From Candidatus Eiseniibacteriota bacterium (GTDB taxonomy: Bacteria > Eisenbacteria > RBG-16-71-46): DNA of 37,730 nt. This document shows positions 3,781-32,256 of the stretch, in pieces. The stretch spans positions 1-37,730 of the forward strand of contig VBOY01000014.1 in assembly GCA_005893295.1 (NCBI GenBank), read 5' to 3'. A model generated the notes under the pieces. It had not been told where the DNA came from, searched no databases, and saw nothing but the letters and a program-made list of their open reading frames with translations. The stretch's first letter is position 1. Every line of letters begins with the position of its first letter. Position numbers and translations under genes: made by a program.

Positions 3781-4886
3781 ATGAACTTCGATCTCGCCGA
3801 GGATCAGGTCGCGGTGCGAGACACGGTGCGCGAGCTGTGCACGCGCGAGTTCGCGCCGCACGCCGCGCGCTGGGACCAGGAGGGGGCCGTGCCCCCGAGC
3901 GCGGTCGGGCGCCTGGCCGAGCAGGGCTTCCTCGGCATGGCGATTCCCGAGGAGTGGGGAGGTGTGGGTTACGACGCGCGCACCGTCGTGGTGGCGCTCG
4001 AGGAGATCGCGCGCGTCTCGGCCGCGCTGGCGATCATGATCGCGGTGCACAATTCGGTTGGAGCCCTTCCGGTGTTTCGCTTCGGTACCGACGAGCAGCG
4101 CCGTCGCTACCTGCCACGGCTGGTCTCGAAGGAACTGGCGGCCTTCTCGCTCTCCGAGCCCGGCGCCGGCTCCGATGCCGGCGCGATCGCGTCGAGCGCG
4201 CGGCGCGACGGCGATCACTACGTGCTGAACGGCAGCAAGACCTGGGTCACGAATGGAGCCCAAGCCGGCATCTACCTGATCTTCGCGCGCACCAACCGCG
4301 AGGGAGGCAACCGCGGAATCAGCGCGTTCATCGTGGAGAGCGGCACGCCCGGACTCGTGATCGGCAAGCCCGAGGACAAAATGGGGCTGCGCGGCTCGGA
4401 CACCGTGGCGCTGACTCTCGAAGACCTGCGCGTGCCGGCGGACCAGCGGCTCGGCGTCGAGGGGGAAGGCTTCAGGATCGCGATGAGCATGCTGGACGCG
4501 GGCCGGATCGGCGTGGGGGCCCAGGCGTTGGGCGTGATGGTGGCGGCGTTCGAGGAAGCGGTGCGCTACGCGCAGCAGCGCCGTGCGTTCGGCCATGAAA
4601 TCTCCCGCGTCCAAGCGGTGCAATGGAAGTTGGCCGAGATGGAGCGGCGCATCCAGTGCGCACGACTGTTGATCCAGCGCGCCGCGTGGCTCAAGGACGT
4701 GGGTCGCCCCTACTCGCGCGAAGCCTCGATGGCGAAGCTGTACGCGAGCGAAGCCGCGACTTGGGTCACGCATCAGGCGATCCAAGTGCACGGCGGCTAC
4801 GGCTACATCAAGGAATACCCGGTCGAGCGCTACGCGCGCGACTGGTGATCGCCCGCTCGCTGCTCAAGGACGGAGTGCGGACATAG
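3781..4886 (+). pseudogene. Acyl-CoA dehydrogenase with 3' deletion removing the catalytic glutamate
   Basis: The first 355 codons encode a clear acyl-CoA dehydrogenase (FDLAEDQ start, [44 protein letters not shown]). The frame then ends at TGA 4846-4848 right after ARDW. Intact relatives continue with about 15 residues containing the ITEIYEGT segment and its catalytic glutamate, then a tail like LVIARSLLKD. That tail is present in another frame directly after the stop: 4842-4886 reads LVIARSLLKDGVRT. The simplest reading is a deletion of about 46 bp that removed the active-site segment and shifted the frame. The rest of the gene shows no decay, so the event is recent, or the sequence has an error here. 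The truncated protein should fold in part but lack the catalytic base. Confidence 0.85.
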
Positions 4887-5011
4887 CGTGAGACGCGGCG
4901 GGGCTGCCGCTAGGCAAACGGTGCGGAACCTTGCTCCTGCGGGCCGAAGTGCCGGCGCGGTCACCCGCCGTCCCTCGCTGGGCCGCGAGCCAAGCCGCTC
5001 GGGACTGATCC

Positions 5012-5941
5012 ATGCCTAGCCCGAGGATTCTCGATGCCATCGGGAACACTCCCCTGGTCGAACTCCGCCACCTCGTGCCCGCCGGATGCGCGCGAGTGGT
5101 AGCCAAACTGGAGTCGGCGAATCCCACCGGAAGCATGAAAGATCGCATGGCCCGGGCCATGATCGAGCGCGCCGCCGCAGAGGGTCGGCTCTCGCCGGGC
5201 GGCACCGTCGTCGAATACACCGCCGGCACGACGGGCATCTCGCTTGCCCTCGTGTGCGCTGCTCTCGGATACCGAGCGCACTTTGTGTACTCGGATGCTT
5301 TCAGTGAAGAGAAGCGCTACACGATGCGTGCCTATGGCGCGACGATCACGGATGTGGCGAGCGACGACAGGAAGATCACGGAGCAACTGATCAAGAGGAT
5401 GATCAGCACCTCGAAGGAGATCAGCCGCCGGCCCGGGCATTGGTGGTGCGACCAGTTGAACAATCCGGACGGCGAATCCGGGTACCACCGGCTCGGCGAG
5501 GAAATCTGGCAGCAAGCCGGCCAGCGCGTGGATGCCTTGGTACACGTCGTGAGCACGGCCCACTCGATCCACGGGACGGCTCGCGCGCTGCGGCGCCGCA
5601 ATCCCGATCTGCGCGTCGTCGCGGTGGAACCTGCCGAGTCGGCGGTGCTCTCCGGGAAGCCTTCCGGGTCGCACAAGATCGAAGGGATCGGCATCGGCTT
5701 CACGCCGCCACTGTGGAAGCCGAACGAAGTCGACGACATTCTCACCGTGACGACGGAGGAAGCCAAGCACATGGCCCGACGGCTGGCACGGGAGGAGGCA
5801 ATCTTCGCCGGATCGTCGACGGGCGCGAACGTGATCGCGGCCATCCGTGTGGCGGAAAGGCTCGGCCCCAGATCCACCGTCGCCACGATCGTCGTCGATT
5901 CTGGGTTGCGCTATGTCAGCACCGACGTCTTTCGGGCCTGA
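5012..5941 (+). CDS. PLP-dependent cysteine synthase family protein
   Basis: A 309-residue fold-type II PLP enzyme related to cysteine synthase and cystathionine beta-synthase. It begins with the family motif ILDAIGNTPLVEL; the PLP-binding lysine is K43 in NPTGSMKDRM. The loop that is usually TSGNTG reads TAGTTG (residues 70-75). Further family segments are QLNNPDGESGYHRLGEEIW, GIGIGF and VVDSGLRYVSTDVF. The altered loop suggests a substrate other than plain O-acetylserine, but the reaction is not certain. No ribosome-binding site is obvious before the ATG. Codon use looks somewhat less GC-biased than the neighbours (for example around 5280-5410), and it stands alone between a broken gene and a convergent gene, so acquisition by transfer is possible. 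Confidence 0.85.
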   Translation: MPSPRILDAIGNTPLVELRHLVPAGCARVVAKLESANPTGSMKDRMARAMIERAAAEGRLSPGGTVVEYTAGTTGISLALVCAALGYRAHFVYSDAFSEEKRYTMRAYGATITDVASDDRKITEQLIKRMISTSKEISRRPGHWWCDQLNNPDGESGYHRLGEEIWQQAGQRVDALVHVVSTAHSIHGTARALRRRNPDLRVVAVEPAESAVLSGKPSGSHKIEGIGIGFTPPLWKPNEVDDILTVTTEEAKHMARRLAREEAIFAGSSTGANVIAAIRVAERLGPRSTVATIVVDSGLRYVSTDVFRA

Positions 5942-6017
5942 TCACATCAGGCGCTTTCGCTCGCGGACGCGCAAGCGCTTGCAGGAGGCGGCGGGCACGA
6001 GCGAGGCCCATCGGACT

Positions 6018-6042
6018 CGCGGGTCCGAATCGGTCACCCGCG
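6018..6042. terminator. Weak inverted repeat between convergent genes
   Basis: In the 215-base gap between the PLP enzyme and the converging ChrB-like gene, CGCGGGT (6018-6024) pairs with ACCCGCG (6036-6042) across an 11-base loop. No T-run follows on either strand, so it is at best a weak bidirectional terminator. I see nothing else in this gap. Confidence 0.25.
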
Positions 6043-6156
6043 GCGCGTGAAACGGCGCATCACGCGGCGTCGGCCGCCGCCAAGCCCGCCCCGCTTAGGC
6101 GGAAACATCGCGCTGGCGCATCGAGACATGGCGGAACGTCGAGACCCGAGGCGCCC

Positions 6157-6600
6157 TCAAGGTGCGGGCGTACCCGCCTCGACCTGCGACTGGCACCATG
6201 CGTAGAGCGCGTCGTAGACCGGCAGCTCGGCCGCGAGCTGCGCCTGGTCGTCGTCGTAGACCAAGCCAAAGCCGCGCGCGATCGCCTCGAGGCCGCGTGA
6301 TTCCGGCGTGAGGTCCTTGTCCTCCGTATCGGCGCCGCGCACGATCGATGCCAGGCGGCGCAGCGCGGGGTCGTCGAGCCGGTAGCGGTCGAGGATCGCG
6401 TCGAAGCTGCAGCGCGGGCCGTGATGCCCCAGCTCGACGTCCGGTACGTCGTAGGGGATCGCCTGCTCGCGCGCGGCGAGCGTCTTCACCTGGTCGGCCG
6501 GCACGAACAGAAACTCGGCCTCGGAGTCGACGAAACGCCGGATCAGCCACGGGCAGGCGATGCGGTCGACTTTCGGTCGCTCGCGTGTGATCCATTTCAT
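6157..6600 (-). CDS. ChrB-like (chromate resistance domain) protein
   Basis: A 147-residue protein matching the C-terminal domain of chromate-resistance protein ChrB. It starts MKWITRERPKVDRIACPWLI and holds family segments IPYDVPDVELGHHG, CSFDA, IVRGADTEDKDL and YDALYAWC. The conserved cysteine and histidines are compatible with a metal or redox role, but the biochemical function of this domain is not firmly known. The ATG at 6600 is supported by AGGAGG six bases upstream on the minus strand; the same frame runs on to 7383 only as a shadow of the divergent gene. No chromate transporter ChrA gene is adjacent, so a role in chromate resistance is uncertain. It is divergent from the DUF362 gene. 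Confidence 0.85.
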   Translation of the reverse strand: MKWITRERPKVDRIACPWLIRRFVDSEAEFLFVPADQVKTLAAREQAIPYDVPDVELGHHGPRCSFDAILDRYRLDDPALRRLASIVRGADTEDKDLTPESRGLEAIARGFGLVYDDDQAQLAAELPVYDALYAWCQSQVEAGTPAP

Positions 6601-22887: not shown

Positions 22888-23681
22888 CGCCGCTCGTGGG
22901 GAAGAGCAAAGGCGCGCGGTCGAGGCAGGTGCGCACGGGCGCATCGCCCCAGGCGAGGCCGGCGAAGGCGACGGCGCCACCGATCGTGGCGCCGTCGATC
23001 CTCTCGGCCGACTTCTCGCGGCTCTCATCCGAGCTGGCGCTGGTCGACCCCGCGCGTGACTGGGTGCACTGCGACGTGATGGACAACCACTTCGTGCCCA
23101 ACCTCACCTTTGGGCCGATCGTGGTGCGCGCGGTGCGCGACCTCACCCGCGCCCAGGTGGACGTTCACCTCATGATCGAGGAGCCCGCGCGGCTGGTGCC
23201 CGAGTTCCGCGCGGCCGGGGCCGATGGCATCACGGTGCACCTCGAGGCGTGCCGCGAGGTCGCCAAGACGCTGGCGGCGATCCGCACCCAGGGTGCTCGG
23301 GTGGGGCTGGCGCTCAAGCCGGGGACGCCCATCGAGGAAGCCGAGCCCCACCTCGCGGGGCTCGGCCTGTTGCTGGTGATGACGGTGGAGCCCGGCTTCG
23401 GCGGGCAGGCCTTCATCCCGGGAATGCTCGACAAGGTGCGGGCGGCCGTGACGTGGCGCGAGCGCCACGGCGCGCGCTACCTGATCGAGGTCGACGGCGG
23501 GATCGCCCCCGCCACGGCTCGCCGGGCTCGCCGCGCGGGAGCGGAGGTGTTCGTCGCCGGGCACGCCATCTATCGGCAAGGCGACCCGCGCCACGCGCTC
23601 TCCAAGCTGCGCGACGCGGTGGGCGTTCCGAAGCTCATCCCCCAATCTCGAGCCGCTCGCCGGTCTCGAGCAGCGTCTTGA
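22884..23681 (+). CDS. rpe: Ribulose-phosphate 3-epimerase
   Basis: A 265-residue TIM-barrel epimerase interconverting ribulose-5-phosphate and xylulose-5-phosphate in the pentose-phosphate pathway. Motifs are VAPSILSADF, HCDVMDNHFVPNLTFGP, VHLMIEEP, LLVMTVEPGFGGQAFI and IEVDGGIAPATA. A basic N-terminal extension of about 34 residues precedes the barrel; the GTG at 22884 was chosen for its GTGA overlap with the PASTA gene, but an internal start nearer the barrel is possible. The 3' end overlaps the convergent ArsR-SRPBCC gene by 47 bases, so the last 15 or so residues (Arg/Ser/Ala-rich) come from the overlap. Confidence 0.95.
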   Translation: MTPLVGKSKGARSRQVRTGASPQARPAKATAPPIVAPSILSADFSRLSSELALVDPARDWVHCDVMDNHFVPNLTFGPIVVRAVRDLTRAQVDVHLMIEEPARLVPEFRAAGADGITVHLEACREVAKTLAAIRTQGARVGLALKPGTPIEEAEPHLAGLGLLLVMTVEPGFGGQAFIPGMLDKVRAAVTWRERHGARYLIEVDGGIAPATARRARRAGAEVFVAGHAIYRQGDPRHALSKLRDAVGVPKLIPQSRAARRSRAAS

Positions 23682-24414
23682 GCCCCGAGAGGATCACGCT
23701 GAGTCCCTCGCGCACGCTCATGAGCGTCGCGGTCTCACCCTCGAAACCTCGGTGCTCGACCGTCACGCGGCACGCAGCGCCGAGTGGCTCGATCGTCCAC
23801 ACCACGGTGTGCGCGGGGTCGCGTGCCACCTCGTCGTCCCACAGGGCCGAGAAGCTGTGCACCAGACGGCGCGGTCGCTCCACCTCGAGCACGGTTCCCT
23901 CCGCCGCGGGCTTCCCGTCCGGGTAGGCATAGGTGAGCGGCGAGCCCGGCTTCCAATCGCTCGCCACCAGCGTTCCATGGAAATAGTCGCGCGTGCGCTC
24001 TGCGCGCGTGATCGCCTCCCAGATCTGCTCCGCGGACGCGCGGATGATCACCTCGTGGGCGTGGCGTGGCAGGGTCGCGGTCGCCATGTTGCTCGTGCGA
24101 TTCATGGCCGTCTCCTCCACCTCGCGTTCGAGATCGCCGAGCGAGCCCGCCCAGGGTTCCGCGTACTTGTCGATCCAGCGGTCGTGGATGAGTCGGATCG
24201 GCACCGGGTTCAAGTAATGGAGCTTCTTCCGGCCCGCGCGCCGCGTGAGCACCAGCCCGGCCGACTCGAGCACCTTGAGGTGCTTCATGGTGCCGAAGCG
24301 GGTCATGGGCAGATGGGCATCGAGCTCTGCGAGCGTGCGGCCGTCCGCATGGAAGAGGAGGTCCAGCAGGGCCCGCCGATGCGGATCGGACAAGGCGCGG
24401 AAGACGGTTTCCAT
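23635..24414 (-). CDS. ArsR-family HTH regulator fused to an SRPBCC/AHSA1 domain
   Basis: A 259-residue fusion. Residues 1-95 are an ArsR-type winged helix (METVFRALSDPHRRALLDLL, TRFGTMKHLKVLESAGLV, RRAGRKKLHYLNP). Residues about 118-255 form an SRPBCC/AHSA1 ligand-binding fold (EVIIRASAEQIWEAIT, DYFHGTLVASDWKPGS, VVWTIEPLG). In related fusions the second domain is thought to sense a hydrophobic small molecule; here the ligand is unknown. No metal-binding cysteines typical of metal-sensing ArsR are present. The promoter just upstream carries inverted repeats, which suggests autorepression. The 3' end overlaps rpe on the other strand. Confidence 0.88.
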   Translation of the reverse strand: METVFRALSDPHRRALLDLLFHADGRTLAELDAHLPMTRFGTMKHLKVLESAGLVLTRRAGRKKLHYLNPVPIRLIHDRWIDKYAEPWAGSLGDLEREVEETAMNRTSNMATATLPRHAHEVIIRASAEQIWEAITRAERTRDYFHGTLVASDWKPGSPLTYAYPDGKPAAEGTVLEVERPRRLVHSFSALWDDEVARDPAHTVVWTIEPLGAACRVTVEHRGFEGETATLMSVREGLSVILSGLKTLLETGERLEIGG

Positions 24415-24465: not shown

Positions 24466-24574
24466 GCGGGCCGATTCCAGGCAAATCGAGGAGTTTTGGC
24501 TGGTCCGTTAGAGGCGACCTCTGAGCCTCGCCCTGGGCCGTGCATGCGTTCCCTACCTCCACCTGCCTACCCTG

Positions 24575-24583
24575 TGCTATGTT
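24575..24583 (+). promoter_or_regulatory. Possible extended -10 element upstream of ffh
   Basis: TG-C-TATGTT at 24575-24583 resembles an extended -10 box, 25 bases before the ffh GTG. No convincing -35 hexamer is found at the right distance, which extended -10 promoters can lack. Confidence 0.3.
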
Positions 24584-24608
24584 GCGCGCTTCTTGGGCGA
24601 GAGGAACA

Positions 24609-25937
24609 GTGTTCGAAGCGCTGACGGGCCGTCTCGACGGCATCTTCCGGAAGCTCACGGGCCAGGCTCGATTGACCCCCGAGAGCATTCAGGAAGGCTT
24701 GAGGGAAGTGCGGCGAGCGCTGCTCGAAGCCGATGTTCAAGTCGCTGTCGCGAAGGACTTTATCACCAGGGTCGAGGCGCGGGCAGTCGGCCAAGAGGTT
24801 CTCCGCAGCCTGACTCCGGGTCAGCAGGTGATCGGCTTGGTGCGGGACGAGCTGATTCGCCTGCTCGGGGATCGCCCGGTCACGCTGGCCGGCTCACCGC
24901 ATCTGCCGACGGTGGTGCTGCTCGCGGGCCTTCAGGGCTCGGGCAAGACCACCTTCGCGGGAAAGCTCGCGCACTGGCTCAAGAACGCGGGCAAACGGAC
25001 GCTGCTGGCGAGCGCCGACGTCTATCGCCCGGCCGCGATCGAGCAGCTCGAGCGGCTGGGAGCCCAAGCCGAGGTGGGCTTCTTTCGCGCGGACGAGGGG
25101 ACTCAGCCGGCCGAGATCGTGCGGCGAGCGGTCGACGAGGCGCGGCGCAGAGGATTCGACTTCCTGGTGCTCGACACCGCCGGACGGCTCCACATCGACG
25201 AGCCCTTGATGGCGGAGTTGGCGGAGCTCAAGGCCGCGGCGCGGGCCCATCAGGTGCTGCTGGTGGTGGACGGGATGACCGGCCAGGAGGCGGTACGGAT
25301 CGGCCGCGCGTTTGCCGAGCGGACCGGGATCGATGGGCTGGTGCTGACCAAGATGGATGGCGACGCGCGCGGCGGCGCGGCGCTGTCGCTGAGGCAGGTG
25401 ACGGGCAAGCCGATCCTGTTCCTCGGCGTGGGCGAGAAGCTCGACGCGCTCGAGGCGTTCGATCCCGAGCGCGTGGCAGGACGCATCCTGGGGATGGGCG
25501 ACGTGCTGGGCTTGGTCGAGCGGGCCCGCGCGACGGTGGATCGAGAAGCGGTCGAGCGCATGGCCGAGAGAGCGCGCCGCGCCGACTGGACACTCGAGGA
25601 CTTCCTCGAGCAGCTCAGACAGATGAAGAAGATGGGACCGCTCGAGGACCTGGCGAAGATGCTGCCGGGAGTGCCGCGCCAAGCGCTGTCCGAGATCGGG
25701 CCCCAGGCGGGGCGTCTCAAGCGCTTCGAGGCGATCCTGCTCAGCATGACGCCGTTCGAGCGGCGCCATCCGCGACGGATCGACGGAAGTCGCCGGCGCC
25801 GCATCGCGGCCGGAAGCGGCACCACGGTGCCGGAAGTGAACCAGCTGTTGAAGGACTTCGAGCAGGCGCGAACGTTGATGAAGCGCCTGAAGCACGGTCC
25901 GCGCGGTCTCAAGGGCTTGCGCGGCCTGATGCGCTGA
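24609..25937 (+). CDS. ffh: Signal recognition particle protein Ffh (SRP54)
   Basis: A 442-residue GTPase that binds signal sequences of membrane proteins and delivers ribosomes to FtsY. The N domain (1-90) is followed by the GTPase domain with [48 protein letters not shown] and a G-x-GEK segment. The M domain ends [29 protein letters not shown] and [11 protein letters not shown]. The GTG at 24609 is preceded by AGAGGA at five bases; an in-frame ATG at 24540 would add 23 unconserved residues. The M domain is short and lacks a long methionine-rich tail. No 4.5S RNA was seen in the flanking gap. Confidence 0.96.
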
Positions 25938-26061: not shown

Positions 26062-26484
26062 ATGGCAGTCGTCATTCGCTTGATGCGGGCCGGGGCGAAG
26101 AAGCGGCCCTTCTTTCGCATGGTGGCCGCGGATTCTCGCCGCCAGCGGGATGGGCGCTTTCTCGAGATCCTGGGCCACTACAACCCGCTCACTCAGCCCT
26201 TCGAGGTGATGGTCCACAAGGACAAGGTCGAGGCGTGGCTCAACAAGGGCGCTCAGCCCTCGGAGCAGGCAGCTTCGCTGTTGCGCTCGCTCGGGATCCA
26301 GCCGGCGCGCGCGGCGACCGCGGCAAGTGAGGTGGCGCCCGCGATCGTCGTCGCGCCCAAGCCGAACGCGAAATCGGCGAAGGCGGCGGTGAAGCGGGCC
26401 GCTCCGCGCAAGGTATCGAGCCGCAAGGTCGAGAGGAAGGCCGCGCGCAAGGCGGCGAAGAAGAAGGCGGCCGCCAAGAGCTGA
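26062..26484 (+). CDS. rpsP: Small ribosomal subunit protein bS16 with basic C-terminal extension
   Basis: A 140-residue S16 protein. Residues 1-80 are the standard fold ([53 protein letters not shown]). About 60 further residues form an Ala/Lys-rich tail (KAAVKRAAP and similar), as seen in several high-GC bacteria and probably contacting rRNA. GGAGG upstream of the ATG is a strong ribosome-binding site. Position after ffh is the classical arrangement, but the KH-domain protein, rimM, trmD and rplS that normally follow are absent; a HemC-like gene follows instead. Confidence 0.97.
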
Positions 26485-26597: not shown

Positions 26598-26623
26598 GCC
26601 AAGCCACGTTCGAGGAGCGCTCG

Positions 26624-27550
26624 ATGACCCTTCCCGCGAAATTGCGACTCGGTGTCCGGACCGGCCGCCTGGCGGCGGCGTTGGCTCACGAGGTCAAGGA
26701 AGCCTTGGAGCAAGCGCATCCGCACATGGCGGTGGAGATCGTCAAGCTCGCCTCCGCGGGAGATCACGTACACGACGGGCCCCAGCGCGGAGCGGCCTTC
26801 ACGCGCGAGCTCGACCAGGCGCTCGCCGGCGACCGGATCGATGCCGCGCTTCACGACCTGCCCGACTTGCCGCTGGTAAGGCCCGATGCGCTGGTGATCG
26901 TCGCCGTCCCACGCCGACGTCACCCCTTCGACGTCCTGCTCACCGCGGACGGCCGCATCCTGGACGAGCTGGAGCCCGGCGAGCGGATCGCCGCTTCGAG
27001 TGCCGCCCGCATGGCCCAGATGCTGGGGTATCGCGACGACCTCAAGGTGATGCGCGCCCTGGGCAGCCTCGACACCCACTGGCAGCAGCTCGCCGATGGT
27101 CAGTTCGAGGGCCTGGTGATGGCTGCGACCGACGCCGAACGGCTCGGCTGGCACGACCGGGTGAGCGAGATCTTCACCACCGAGGTCTGCATCCCGGTTC
27201 CGGGCCAAGGGGCGCTCGCCCTCGAGGCCCTGTCGAGCCGCAAGGACGTGATCGCGGCACTCAAGGGGCTCGACGACGAAGCCTCCCGCCACGCGGTGAC
27301 CGCGGAGCGCGCATGGCTCAACGAGCTGGGGGGCGAGGACGATCTGCCCGCCGGGGCGCTGGCCAACGTGGTGGGAGGGCGGCTGGTGATCGAAGCGGTG
27401 GTGGTGAGCCGAGACGGCATGGAAGTCGTGCGCGAGGAAATCGAGGGGCCGGCAACGAGCGCCGAAGCGCTGGGAGCCAAGCTGGCGGTGCGCATGCTTG
27501 AGCGTGGCGCCCAGGACATCCTCGAAGCGACGGCCGGTGGGTCGGGATGA
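26624..27550 (+). CDS. HemC-like (hydroxymethylbilane synthase family) protein lacking cofactor cysteine
   Basis: A 308-residue protein with the fold landmarks of porphobilinogen deaminase along its whole length: LRLGVRTGRLAAALAHEV, RELDQALAGDRIDAALHDLPDLP, RIAASSAARMAQM, LGSLDTHWQQLADGQFEGLV, PVPGQGALALEAL and AERAWLNELGGEDDLPAGA. Key residues differ. The cysteine that holds the dipyrromethane cofactor (C242 in E. coli) is E238. The arginines equivalent to R131, R149 and R155 are A128, L146 and H152, and K83 is P80. The arginine near R11 (R12), the catalytic aspartate (D81) and R129 remain. It probably cannot build hydroxymethylbilane; it is a divergent paralogue, perhaps a binding protein. 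GAGGAG precedes the ATG; the end overlaps the TPR lipoprotein gene (ATGA). No other haem gene is nearby. Confidence 0.8.
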   Translation: MTLPAKLRLGVRTGRLAAALAHEVKEALEQAHPHMAVEIVKLASAGDHVHDGPQRGAAFTRELDQALAGDRIDAALHDLPDLPLVRPDALVIVAVPRRRHPFDVLLTADGRILDELEPGERIAASSAARMAQMLGYRDDLKVMRALGSLDTHWQQLADGQFEGLVMAATDAERLGWHDRVSEIFTTEVCIPVPGQGALALEALSSRKDVIAALKGLDDEASRHAVTAERAWLNELGGEDDLPAGALANVVGGRLVIEAVVVSRDGMEVVREEIEGPATSAEALGAKLAVRMLERGAQDILEATAGGSG

Positions 27551-27912
27551 GGGCGGCGAAGCGGGGCTCGCTCGCGACGTCCGGGCGCCGGCGCGGGCTC
27601 GGGGTGGTCGCGGCCATGACGCTCCTGCTCGTTTCCGGATGTGGAGCGAAGCCCAAGAACCCGGACCCGGGAGCGAGCCGGCCGTCCCAGACGCGCTCCC
27701 AGGCGCTCATCGATGCCGGGAACCAGGCCTATCGTGACGGCAATTACAGCTTGGCCGCGCGGCGCTACGCCGCGGCCACCGAGGTCAAGAGCGACGACCC
27801 GGCCGCCTACTACGGGCTCGGCATGGCGCTCGCCAAGCTGGGGCGCGACGAGGAGGCCCGCGTCGCCTACGCGCGGGCGCGCGAGCTGGCACGCAGTCAC
27901 AAGGGGCCCTGA
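27547..27912 (+). CDS. Small TPR-repeat lipoprotein
   Basis: A 121-residue protein with a lipoprotein signal: a basic N-terminus (MRAAKRGS..RRRG), a hydrophobic stretch VVAAMTLLL and a lipobox LVSGC with the acylated cysteine at residue 32. The mature part has about two tetratricopeptide-like repeats (ALIDAGNQAYRDGNYSLAA, AAYYGLGMALAKLGRDEEA). TPR lipoproteins act as scaffolds at the envelope. It overlaps the HemC-like gene by ATGA, so the two are translationally coupled, and it sits 40 bases before serS. Membrane side cannot be decided from sequence. The partner is unknown. Confidence 0.8.
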   Translation: MRAAKRGSLATSGRRRGLGVVAAMTLLLVSGCGAKPKNPDPGASRPSQTRSQALIDAGNQAYRDGNYSLAARRYAAATEVKSDDPAAYYGLGMALAKLGRDEEARVAYARARELARSHKGP

Positions 27913-27952: not shown

Positions 27953-29233
27953 ATGCACGATCTCAAGTTCCTGCGACAGAATCGCGAGCGCGTCGAAGCC
28001 GGCGTGGCCCTGAAGGGCATGGCGGTCGATCTCGCCCGCTTCTACGCGATCGAGGAGCGCAGGCTCTCGGTGCTCCACCAGACCGAGGAGCTGAAGGCCC
28101 GTCGCAACGCGGCGAGCGAGGAGATCGCGCGACGCAAGAGGGCGGGCGAGAACGCCGCGGCCGACATCCAGGCGATGCGTCAGGTGGGAGACGAGATCAA
28201 GAGCCTGGATGCCGAGCTCAAGCGGCTCGAGGAGGAGAGCGAGGCGCTGGCGGCCTGGATCCCGAACCTCCCGCACGCCTCGGTACCGCCCGGGAGCGGG
28301 GCCGAGCAGAACCAGGTGGTGCACTCCTTTGGGGAACCCCGGCGCTTCGATTTCGCTCCGCGCCCGCACTGGGAGATCGCGAGCGGTCTCAAGCTGCTCG
28401 ATTTCGAGCGCGCCGCCAAGATCGCGGGCTCGGGGTTCTTGCTGTTTACCGGACGCGGGGCGCGTCTCGAGCGCGGGCTCATCCAGTTCATGCTCGATCT
28501 CCACACCCGCCGCCACGGCTACACCGAGGTCGCGCCGCCACACGTCGTGCGGCGCGCGGCGCTGTTCGGGACCGGGCAGCTCCCCAAGCTCGAAGACGAC
28601 ATGTACCTGATCGGTGAAGACGATCTGTTCCTCAATCCGACCGCCGAAGTGCCGGTGACCAACATCTACCGTGACGAGATCCTCGAGCCTGGCATGGTCC
28701 CCGCCTATCTCACCTCCTATTGCGCCTCCTACCGCCGCGAGGCCGGCACCTGGGGCAAGGACACGCGGGGGATGGTGCGCGTACACCAATTCGACAAGGT
28801 CGAGCTGGTGAAGATCGTGCCGCCCGAGACGAGCTACGACGAGCACGAAACCCTGGCGCGCGACGTGTCGAGCGTCTTCGAGGCTCTCGAGCTGCCGTAC
28901 CGGGTGATGCTGCTGTGCAGCGGCGACCTCAGCTTCGCGGCCGCCAAGTGCTACGACTTCGAAGTCTGGTCGCCGGGCGTCGAGGCGTGGCTCGAGTGCT
29001 CGTCGTGCTCGAACTTCCAGGATTTCCAGGCGCGCCGCATGGGAATGCGCTTCCGCCGCGAGCCGGGCGCCAAGGCCGAGCACCCTCACACGCTCAACGC
29101 CTCGGGCGTCGCGCTGCCGCGTACCTTCGCAGCGCTGCTCGAGAACCACCAGACGGCCTCGGGCGGCGTGCGGATCCCGGCGGCGCTGCGTCCCTACCTC
29201 GATGGTCTCGAGGAGATCGCCCCCGAGGGGTAG
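27953..29233 (+). CDS. serS: Seryl-tRNA synthetase
   Basis: A 426-residue class II synthetase that charges tRNA-Ser. An N-terminal helical coiled-coil arm (about 1-105, LKFLRQNRERVEAGV to LEEESEALA) binds the tRNA long arm. The catalytic domain contains TAEVPVTN, motif 2 SYRREAGTWGKDTRGMVRVH, and motif 3 HTLNASGVALPRTFAALLEN. Length is normal. The stop is followed after three bases by the GTG of the sensor kinase gene, so the two are co-transcribed. Confidence 0.97.
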   Translation: MHDLKFLRQNRERVEAGVALKGMAVDLARFYAIEERRLSVLHQTEELKARRNAASEEIARRKRAGENAAADIQAMRQVGDEIKSLDAELKRLEEESEALAAWIPNLPHASVPPGSGAEQNQVVHSFGEPRRFDFAPRPHWEIASGLKLLDFERAAKIAGSGFLLFTGRGARLERGLIQFMLDLHTRRHGYTEVAPPHVVRRAALFGTGQLPKLEDDMYLIGEDDLFLNPTAEVPVTNIYRDEILEPGMVPAYLTSYCASYRREAGTWGKDTRGMVRVHQFDKVELVKIVPPETSYDEHETLARDVSSVFEALELPYRVMLLCSGDLSFAAAKCYDFEVWSPGVEAWLECSSCSNFQDFQARRMGMRFRREPGAKAEHPHTLNASGVALPRTFAALLENHQTASGGVRIPAALRPYLDGLEEIAPEG

Positions 29234-29236
29234 ACG

Positions 29237-30571
29237 GTGGCCCGCCTCGAGTCGACATCGCCCGGCGCCGCGGCGCCCGAGCCGCAGCGGCAAGCCATCG
29301 CTACGCGCGCGCTGTCGCGCTCGGAGCTGATCCAGGCGTCGCTGTTCTTCGGCGCGAGCCTGCTGGTGGCGGGGGTGTTCGTGTTCACGAACCAGGTGAT
29401 CACGCGGCTCTCCGACGAGATCACCGCCACCTCCCGCGTGCTGGCGCGCTTCTGCGCACAGGCCTCGTTTCCGGCGGTGCGCGACCCCGAGCTGGGGCGC
29501 ATCCTGGTTCAGGTGATCTCGAACGTGGACTTTCCGATCGTGATCTCCGACACGCTCTCGATGCCGCGCGCGTGGCGCAAGCTGGAGGTCGACGAATCGC
29601 TGGTGCCGGACGCCGCGATCGACAGCCTGGTCGAGGGACGACCGATCGCACCGGTGATTCGGGCTCGCATCGAACGGGTGCGCGCGGCGATGGCGCGGCT
29701 CGACCGCTTGAACCCACCGATCCCGATGATTCGGCCGGTGACCGGCGAACGGCTCGGCTCGGTGCACTATGGTGACCCGGCGGTGCTCGAGCGCTTGCGC
29801 TGGATGCCGTACCTGTCGGGAGGCGGCATGGTGGTGCTCCTCTCGCTCGGCGTGTGGGGGCTGGCCGGGATCCGCCGCGCCGAACGTCGCACGATCTGGG
29901 TCGGGATGGCGCGCGAGACCGCCCACCAGCTCGGGACGCCACTCTCCTCGCTGATGGGCTGGATCGAGCTGCTGCGCGCCCACGCGTCGAAACCGACCGC
30001 CGACGAGGTGCGCATGCCGCGCGCCGAGCTCGAGGAGACGCTGGGAGAGATGGAGCGCGACGTCGAGCGCCTGACCAAGGTCGCGCAACGCTTCAGCCAC
30101 GTCGGCTCCGCGCCCGACCTGGCGCTCCAGGACGTGCGTCCGGTGGTGCGCGGGGCGGTGGACTACGTGCGGCGCCGCCTGCCGCAGGGCGAGGGCGAGA
30201 TCGTGATTCTCGAGCGCTACCAGGAGGTGCCGCCCGTCAATCTCGGGCGTGAGTTGCTCGCGTGGGCGGTCGAGAACCTCCTGACCAACGCGGTCTCGGC
30301 GATCGAGCGTCGTCCCGGTAGGATCGAGGTGGTGGTCGAGCCGGGGGAGGGAGGCAAGGTACACGTGATCGTCACCGACAACGGGCGCGGCATGAGCCCG
30401 CCCGAGCAACGGCGGGCCTTCGAGCCCGGCTACACGACCAAGCGCCGGGGCTGGGGCCTGGGACTGGCGCTCGCGCGCCGCGCGGTCGAGGAGTACCACC
30501 GGGGTCGCCTCTACATTCGGCGCAGTGTGCCGGGCGAAGGCACGACCCTGGTGATCGAGCTGCCGGTCTAG
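29237..30571 (+). CDS. Sensor histidine kinase, PorY-like
   Basis: A 444-residue membrane histidine kinase. Two membrane segments (about 31-52 and 190-212) bracket a periplasmic domain of about 135 residues. The H-box is WVGMARETAHQLGTPLSS with the phospho-acceptor H230; the ATPase domain has ENLLTNAVSAI (N box), VTDNGRGM (G1) and GWGLGLALARRAVEEYH (G2). The ETAHQLGTPLSSLMGW form of the H-box resembles PorY-type kinases of Bacteroidota. The start is GTG, three bases after serS. It immediately precedes a PorX-like regulator gene, the obvious partner. The signal sensed is unknown. Confidence 0.9.
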   Translation: MARLESTSPGAAAPEPQRQAIATRALSRSELIQASLFFGASLLVAGVFVFTNQVITRLSDEITATSRVLARFCAQASFPAVRDPELGRILVQVISNVDFPIVISDTLSMPRAWRKLEVDESLVPDAAIDSLVEGRPIAPVIRARIERVRAAMARLDRLNPPIPMIRPVTGERLGSVHYGDPAVLERLRWMPYLSGGGMVVLLSLGVWGLAGIRRAERRTIWVGMARETAHQLGTPLSSLMGWIELLRAHASKPTADEVRMPRAELEETLGEMERDVERLTKVAQRFSHVGSAPDLALQDVRPVVRGAVDYVRRRLPQGEGEIVILERYQEVPPVNLGRELLAWAVENLLTNAVSAIERRPGRIEVVVEPGEGGKVHVIVTDNGRGMSPPEQRRAFEPGYTTKRRGWGLGLALARRAVEEYHRGRLYIRRSVPGEGTTLVIELPV

Positions 30572-30684: not shown

Positions 30685-32256
30685 ATGCCCGACGAGAGCC
30701 GACGCAAGATCCTGTGGGCCGACGACGAGATTGATCTCCTGCGGCCCCACATCAAGTTTCTGGAGCAAAGGGGCTTTGCCGTGACGGCGGTGCCGAACGG
30801 CGAAGACGCGCTGGCCGCGCTCGGTCGCGACCGCTACGACGTGGTGTTGCTCGACGAGATGATGCCCGGGCTCGGCGGGCTCGCCACGCTCGACGCGATC
30901 CAGTCGCGCGAGCTAGCGGTGCCGGTGATCCTGGTCACCAAGAGCGAAGAAGAGCGGCTCATGGAAGAGGCGATCGGCAAGCGGATCACCGACTACCTGA
31001 TCAAGCCGGTGAATCCATCGCAAGTCTTCCTGGCATGCAAGCGGGTGTTCGATGCCGAGCGGCTCCAAGAGTCGCAGCGCGCCCGCGACTACGTGGGCGA
31101 GATGCAGCGCTGGCAATCGCTCGATCGGCGGCGGCTCGACTGGGAGGCCTGGGTGGAGCTGGCCGTGGACGTGGCGCGCTGGGACGTGCGCTTCGATCAA
31201 CTTCCGGAGGAAGGGCTGCAAGGCGCGCACGGAGACTTCCGGCGCGGACTCAACCTCGATTTCGGCCGCTTCATCGAGGAGCACTACGCCGCCTGGGTGC
31301 ATGACGCCCAGGATCGCCCTCTGCTCTCCCACGAGGTGGTGCGCAGGGCGGTGGTGCCGCAGCTCGCCGCCGGACGGCGCGTGGTATTCGTCGTCGTCGA
31401 CTGCATGCGGATCGATCAGTGGCTCACGCTGGAGCCGCTGCTCGAGGAGCTGTTCGAGGTCGAGCGGGCTTATTACTGCTCGATCTTGCCGACCGCGACG
31501 CCGTACGCGCGCAACGCGATATTCTCGGGGCTGCTGCCCGACGATCTGGAGCGCAGCCATCCCGACCTGTGGCAGGAAAGCGGCAACGACGAGCGTTCCA
31601 AGAACCGTCACGAGGGCGAGCTGCTGGATCGGCAGCTCGCACGGCTCGCCGCCACGCCATCGCGGGCGACCAAGTACTTCAAGGTGCTGGACGCCGAGGA
31701 GTCGCTGCAGGTGCGCCGGCAAGTCCACTCCTTCGTCGGACTCGGGCTGGTGAGCCTGGTGTTCAACTTTCTCGACATTCTGGCGCACGGGCGCTCGGAG
31801 AACGAGATCCTCCAGCAGCTGGCGCCCGACGAAGCGGCGCTGCGTACGATCACGCGAGCATGGTTCACGCACAGCTCGCTCTACGAGATCTTCCGCGGCC
31901 TCGCGTCCCAGGACGCGGTCGTAATCCTGACCACCGACCACGGCGCGGTGCTGGCGCGGCGCGCCGCGCTGGTGCGCGGGGATCGCGAGACCTCGACCAG
32001 CCTGCGCTACAAGTTCGGCCGCAACGTGAACGCCGATCCGAAGCAGGCCTTGATCCTGCGCGATCCGGAAACCTACCGGCTTCCCGGCGAGGGCGCGGTC
32101 AAGAACTATGTCTTGGCGCGCGAAGATTTCTACTTCGTCTACCCCACGCGATTCCACGAGTACGAACGGCACTACCGCGGATCGCTCCAGCACGGCGGCA
32201 TCTCGATCGAGGAAATGATCCTGCCGCTCGTGACCCTGACGCCGCGGGCGCGATGA
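30685..32256 (+). CDS. porX: PorX-like response regulator with PglZ (alkaline-phosphatase-like) output domain
   Basis: A 523-residue protein. Residues 1-125 form a receiver domain with the phosphorylated aspartate D57 in VVLLDEMMPG and the switch lysine in VTKSEEE. After a helical linker comes a PglZ domain of the alkaline-phosphatase superfamily (about 200-520): VVFVVVDCMRIDQW, SILPTATPYARNAIFSGLLP, TTDHGAV and HYRGSLQHGGISIEEMILP. This layout matches PorX of Porphyromonas gingivalis, a regulator of type IX secretion whose PglZ domain is a zinc-dependent phosphodiesterase. No T9SS structural gene is in the window, so the regulon here is open. It overlaps tsaE (ATGA), the same order as in many Bacteroidota. 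Confidence 0.9.
   Translation: MPDESRRKILWADDEIDLLRPHIKFLEQRGFAVTAVPNGEDALAALGRDRYDVVLLDEMMPGLGGLATLDAIQSRELAVPVILVTKSEEERLMEEAIGKRITDYLIKPVNPSQVFLACKRVFDAERLQESQRARDYVGEMQRWQSLDRRRLDWEAWVELAVDVARWDVRFDQLPEEGLQGAHGDFRRGLNLDFGRFIEEHYAAWVHDAQDRPLLSHEVVRRAVVPQLAAGRRVVFVVVDCMRIDQWLTLEPLLEELFEVERAYYCSILPTATPYARNAIFSGLLPDDLERSHPDLWQESGNDERSKNRHEGELLDRQLARLAATPSRATKYFKVLDAEESLQVRRQVHSFVGLGLVSLVFNFLDILAHGRSENEILQQLAPDEAALRTITRAWFTHSSLYEIFRGLASQDAVVILTTDHGAVLARRAALVRGDRETSTSLRYKFGRNVNADPKQALILRDPETYRLPGEGAVKNYVLAREDFYFVYPTRFHEYERHYRGSLQHGGISIEEMILPLVTLTPRAR

Follow-up and report, generated by a model that had tools for sequence, protein, structure and literature searches.

Gene content of the locus

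The window, a stretch of DNA of 37,730 nucleotides, was analysed around an open reading frame on the plus strand at 26624-27550. This frame codes for a Cys-less hydroxymethylbilane synthase (HMBS) paralogue of 308 aa with the HMBS fold, referred to here as HemC2. It starts with ATG, and a ribosome-binding site, GAGGAG, was read from the sequence at 26612-26617, 6 nt upstream of the start codon; frame, length and ribosome-binding site were all exactly as originally predicted. The neighbouring genes lie on the same strand. Upstream are ffh (24540-25937) and rpsP (26062-26484), which precede HemC2 only in the window's family and its sister family. Downstream are a TPR lipoprotein gene (27547-27912), whose start shares an ATGA overlap with the HemC2 stop (27547-27550), serS for seryl-tRNA synthetase (27953-29233), a membrane histidine kinase gene (29237-30571) and a gene for a response regulator with a PglZ domain (PorX-like; 30685-32256). 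The kinase and the PglZ response regulator form a pair beside serS that is kept across the phylum. PorX is best known for its control of type IX secretion in Bacteroidota. On the minus strand at 23635-24414, between rpe and ffh, lies a frame that by eye fuses an ArsR-type regulator with an SRPBCC/AHSA1-like domain.

Homology and predicted structure

The full-length likeness to porphobilinogen deaminase proposed in the original prediction was borne out by profile and structure searches. HemC2 of the window was a full-length HMBS homologue with matches to PF01379 (E 6.6e-42) and PF03900 (E 1e-11), it matched E. coli HMBS in phmmer (E 2.7e-42), and its TIGR00212 score of 200.6 bits passed the 164-bit cut-off. 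The AlphaFold2 model had a pLDDT of 92.6 and a pTM of 0.90, and the three-domain fold of HMBS was present by the model and by both Pfam domains. The top solved-structure matches of the model were all HMBS, the first being E. coli 1ah5 (TM 0.92/0.95), and the Foldseek matches that ranked below HMBS were type II binding proteins. The model of a strongly diverged HemC2 from genome G035 was confident too (pLDDT 90.4). A contig search with the window protein alone gave a single distant HemC match, from Streptacidiphilus.

Active-site residues

Alignment with E. coli HMBS, whose numbering is used below, placed D239 at the position of the cofactor-binding Cys242 (codons E238-D239, 27335-27340). The loss of the cysteine was thus as predicted; its position had been given as E238, which aligns with G241, an error of one column that leaves the conclusion unchanged. 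K83 was replaced by P80, adjacent to the catalytic aspartate D81 (D84 in E. coli; codons P80-D81, 26861-26866), R131 by A128, adjacent to the retained R129 (R132 in E. coli; codons A128-R129, 27005-27010), R149 by L146 and R155 by H152 (27077-27079), with His at this last position in all five orthologues of the family. The predicted losses of K83, R131 and R155 and the retention of D81 and R12 (R11 in E. coli) all stood, while the loss of R149 was peculiar to the window copy, its four nearest orthologues having Arg there (4/5). R173 and Q195 correspond to the retained R176 and Q198. Three of the seven Arg/Lys residues of the cofactor and substrate sites (R11, K83, R131, R132, R149, R155 and R176) were therefore present in the window copy, namely R11, R132 and R176. 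The active-site loop was also shorter, and K55 and K59 were absent.

For comparison, HemCs were taken from outside the phylum (39 sampled) and from within it (20 copies with the cysteine, among them that of G037). R11, K83, D84, R131, R132, R149, R155, R176, Q198 and C242 were invariant in all 59. Since these ten residues were kept in 39/39 outside and 20/20 inside HemCs, the losses in HemC2 are far beyond chance. Cys242 was found in 0/20 HemC2 copies vs 59/59 comparison HemCs. D84 and Q198 were retained in HemC2 (at the former position D in 18/19 copies and E in one), R132 and R232 were kept in most copies, and K83, R131, R149, R155, R176 or R11 were missing in sets specific to each family.

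The cysteine of HMBS is the covalent anchor for the growing chain (PMC8561815). In E. coli HMBS, cofactor binding is lost with R131L or R132L, activity is impaired by R149H and R155H, and D84A/N is inactive (PMC3945110). These mutants and the anchoring role of the cysteine explain the strict conservation of the residues in canonical HemCs. It follows from this published enzymology that HemC2, with the cysteine gone and R131 and R155 replaced, is predicted to be unable to hold a covalent dipyrromethane primer or to make hydroxymethylbilane by the usual route. Residual or altered chemistry may still take place, since D84, Q198, mostly R132 and R232, and the fold are retained.

HemC2 could still be a hydroxymethylbilane synthase if cofactor or substrate were anchored elsewhere, for example at C189 (codon 27188-27190), the sole cysteine of the window copy; the complete HMBS fold, the passed TIGR00212 equivalog cut-off and the retained D84 and Q198 are consistent with this. 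C189 aligns with E. coli S192 in domain 2, outside the cofactor loop, and the position was Cys in 11/19 copies but had no Cys in 8/19 (all seven of family f11 and the copy of G024). Given also that R131, R149, R155, K83 or R11 are missing in varied combinations and that R131L in E. coli leaves the enzyme without cofactor, retained synthase activity is very improbable.

Distribution and gene neighbourhood

A profile built from five family copies was used to scan 47 genomes of the phylum, from one class. Cys-less HemC2 was found in 20 of them, in families f1, f4, f6, f8 and f11; the copies of G029 and G031 were truncated by contig ends, and 19 of the 20 copies could be placed in a tree. The window's family (f1) had five orthologues that were 62-73% identical, all without the cysteine. 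A second profile, made from 18 HemC2 sequences, was run on 385 genomes, about 338 of which do not belong to the phylum. It gave a clear gap, with full-length HemC2 among the matches listed at 393-471 bits, the HemC of G037 at 371 and the best protein from outside the phylum at 300.

serS was downstream of HemC2 in 20/20 loci, and the histidine kinase and PglZ response regulator came next wherever the contig extended. The gap between HemC2 and serS was 3-105 nt in the 15 loci outside f1, and in f1 the one TPR lipoprotein gene intervenes. The upstream genes varied by family: ffh-rpsP in f1, ABC-transporter-like genes in f11 and sugar-nucleotide-type genes in f4, f6 and f8, the types in these last four families having been read from the sequence by eye. 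A Cys-less clade with rpsP or the TPR lipoprotein as its constant neighbour had been proposed as a check; the clade was recovered, and the constant neighbours proved instead to be serS, the kinase and the PglZ regulator.

Relatives in f1 without HemC2 still had ffh-rpsP-lipoprotein-serS-kinase, and with these flanks intact the gene is cleanly absent from them. Since it has been lost in many relatives, HemC2 is dispensable. The linkage with serS may be inherited rather than functional, because serS, the kinase and the response regulator persist without HemC2. A coupling of HemC2 to the TPR lipoprotein, which had been read from the ATGA overlap, was rejected: the overlap is real, but it is not general, and the lipoprotein, found only in the window's family, stays beside serS in relatives without HemC2.

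Canonical hemC and the haem pathway

The genome of the window (87% complete) carried hemB and a canonical hemC (LRGGCSVPVG, C134:1195-2139) within hemA-hemC-hemD-hemB. The genome search suggested in the original prediction thus found a second hemC, and HemC2 is not the only one. In total, 11/20 HemC2 genomes also carried hemB and a Cys-bearing hemC. The other nine, G007 (98% complete), G009 (96%), G035 (97%), G028 (95%), G029, G030, G031, G034 and G043, lacked hemB and any second HemC, and gave no hemA or hemE match above cut-off; the phylum genomes are mostly many-contig draft assemblies, and such calls of gene absence hinge on completeness. Porphobilinogen is scarcely a plausible ligand in these nine genomes, where hemA and hemB are not recognisable. 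The complete canonical hemC in the window's own genome, and the nine genomes that would have no porphobilinogen by a recognisable route, also speak against HemC2 as a working synthase.

Haem genes without HemC2 were found in G011, G020, G021, G038 and G039, high-completeness genomes with a canonical HemC, and the presence of HemC2 was not associated with that of hemB (Fisher p 0.39). A tie of HemC2 to haem synthesis was rejected on this presence/absence table. Dead paralogues often regulate live relatives, and HemC2 could on that pattern be a catalytically dead partner that regulates or stabilises the haem pathway or its canonical HemC; the 11 genomes with both proteins would allow this. The nine HemC2 genomes without haem pathway genes or another HemC, the high-completeness genomes with canonical HemC and no HemC2, and the missing association with hemB make such a partnership improbable. 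HemC2 probably does a different job from HMBS, because it is strongly conserved across the phylum even where a haem pathway is not detectable.

Six genomes of the window's family (G002, G003, G004, G005, G008 and G015), some of them 92-100% complete, gave no match to hemA, hemB, hemC or hemE, which suggests that many members of this family have lost haem synthesis. The hemE match was in two pieces in G000 (C134:5232-5657 and 5663-6193) and in G016 (C184:429-962 and 7-429); the break falls at a similar place in these two genera and may be a frameshift, an assembly error or a true split.

Phylogeny and origin

The 19 treeable HemC2 formed a single clade in the phylum set, with support of 98/79 on all columns and 92/75 with the diagnostic columns removed. 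With the 39 outside HemCs added and the diagnostic columns removed, the support was 100/98, in a run whose bootstrap was not fully settled. The sister of the clade was the HemC of G037 (100/99), which retains Cys242 and all checked active-site residues; Cys242 was lost in all 20 serS-linked copies outside G037.

The operon of G037 (L064 1036-8010) reads CysG-N - hemC(Cys+) - cobA/hemD - hemB - hemL - serS - HK - RR. Its HemC shares with HemC2 the block of serS, kinase and response regulator and the domain-2 signature I112, D114, Y136, E172, V180, E182, F184 and T185, and differs from it in Cys242 and the other checked residues and in its neighbours CysG-N, cobA/hemD, hemB and hemL. The remark that the gene stands away from haem genes holds for the window's locus but is incomplete, since its ancestor would have been part of a tetrapyrrole operon that G037 retains. 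In G037 hemA stood at a separate site and no hemE match was found, and its tetrapyrrole pathway is probably of the sirohaem/cobalamin type only. In G036, hemB still adjoins serS. Cys-bearing HemCs from the remaining families scattered among the outside HemCs, where the backbone was weak, which fits a later acquisition.

The ancestral hemC would have stood ahead of serS in a sirohaem operon like that of G037 and would have ceased to be needed there, plausibly because lineages adopted a separate hemA-hemC-hemD-hemB operon or abandoned tetrapyrrole synthesis. On the simplest history, the cysteine was lost once, after the G037 line had branched off. The copy close to serS would have shed the cysteine that holds the cofactor and a large part of the Arg/Lys set for binding the carboxylates of the pyrroles, and purifying selection would have retained the reduced copy.

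Selection and location of conserved positions

The dN/dS of HemC2 (Nei-Gojobori; range about 0.07-0.28, dS being high in some pairs) was lower than that of canonical HemC in 4/4 matched genome pairs: 0.067 vs 0.126 in G041/G042, 0.251 vs 0.359 in G016/G017, 0.262 vs 0.351 in G000/G017 and 0.119 vs 0.162 in G040/G041. This purifying selection shows that the gene is not decaying, in agreement with the original prediction of a pseudoenzyme rather than a gene in decay. A relic in slow decay that persists only because it stands ahead of serS would account for the lack of the gene, between intact flanks, in many f1 genomes and for the shortened active-site loop. The low dN/dS, the open frame in five families across the phylum and the confident fold even of the diverged G035 copy leave this reading with almost no probability.

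In canonical copies, 19/30 cleft positions were invariant vs 41/294 positions overall. Conservation of the cleft was not raised across HemC2 as a whole (2/30 vs 30/294), the two invariant positions being Q198 and a common V171A. Cleft conservation gave no family-wide support for one ligand common to all HemC2. Newly fixed cleft residues were K83P, S81D, R155H and G173D in f1, R176H and S128H in f11, R11L, S81R and R176W in f6/f4, and R11G, R132V and R155Q in f8. Within families, cleft conservation was raised only in f6/f4 (21/30, p 0.0004) and f11 (17/30, p 0.02), and not in f1 or f8.

These fixed cleft residues of f6/f4 and f11, the type II binding proteins that follow HMBS in Foldseek and the position of HemC2 upstream of the two-component pair would suit a cytoplasmic binder or sensor of small molecules that uses its cleft like a periplasmic-binding-protein fold and possibly feeds the adjacent histidine kinase and PglZ regulator. 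The cleft differs between families, however, with no excess conservation in f1, in f8 or across HemC2, and the two-component genes persist without HemC2, so that a sensor role of this kind is possible but rather unlikely.

Positions conserved across HemC2 were concentrated in domain 2 (21/100 vs 7/114 in domain 1, p 0.002); canonical HemC had 16/100 and 19/114, respectively. With most of the family-wide conservation in domain 2 and little in the cleft, binding of a protein partner is no less likely than the small-molecule binding put forward in the original prediction. Most of the HemC2-specific domain-2 residues were already present in the Cys-bearing HemC of G037, and several vary freely in canonical HemC. 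Because of their presence in G037, these residues predate the loss of the cysteine, and the signature may partly reflect ancestry rather than a new function.

Functional interpretation

Taken together, HemC2 is best read as an exapted pseudoenzyme derived from the hemC of an ancestral serS-linked sirohaem operon (probability about 0.85). That it is a pseudoenzyme kept for a function other than that of HMBS is highly probable. An intact canonical paralogue exists, HemC2 has lost catalytic residues, and it is under purifying selection; pseudoenzyme paralogues in general likewise keep the fold, lack the catalytic residues and evolve under purifying selection.

As for its role, HemC2 would act non-catalytically and be co-expressed with SerS, most likely with its conserved domain 2 serving in regulation or in binding another protein, and the two-lobed cleft would be left free for a family-specific ligand. 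The interaction or regulatory role of domain 2 is put forward tentatively; we lean to this partner model over a pure ligand sensor and make no firm choice between them. More speculatively, the ancestral serS-linked HemC may already have been bifunctional, the second, domain-2 role having arisen while the enzyme was still active. HemC2 would then be the half that survived the loss of the catalytic one, serving a process peculiar to the phylum and connected with SerS expression or the PglZ two-component system, a history that we consider unlikely.

With HMBS (HemC, EC 2.5.1.61; E. coli 1ah5), from which it descends, HemC2 has in common the fold, the length, the domain order, D84, Q198 and mostly R132. 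Unlike HMBS, it has no Cys242, it is linked to serS rather than to haem genes, and it is retained without hemA, hemB and hemE. HMBS is a textbook enzyme that is defined by its covalent primer. Because two features that define HMBS are missing from HemC2, its descent and the TIGR00212 pass do not justify classing it as HMBS. Automatic annotation would call the window copy HemC, a misannotation, and since the copy passes TIGR00212, pathway reconstruction from metagenomes would credit an absent haem step. The open-access literature searched gave no account of a pseudoenzyme in the HMBS family. HemC2 is a phylum-wide branch that lacks the primer site, yet in matched pairs it evolves under stronger constraint than the genuine enzyme, and it persists in genomes where no tetrapyrrole pathway can be recognised; this combination points to a use of the HMBS fold that has so far gone unrecognised. 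G037, a living relative with an intact enzyme at the same locus, makes the route from enzyme to pseudoenzyme testable.

A parallel case of cysteine loss in HemC was seen in G020, which has a canonical hemA-hemC-hemB and a second HemC-like gene (L061, C50, about 4676-5566, minus strand). Like HemC2, this gene codes for a Cys-less HMBS homologue and coexists with a canonical hemC; unlike HemC2, it is not beside serS, has a very long branch and scores 156 bits, below the TIGR00212 cut-off. Its neighbours are a CysG-N-like gene on one side (5563-6342) and, downstream, a HemL-like gene (from 3351), in an operon-like arrangement that resembles a degenerate sirohaem operon.
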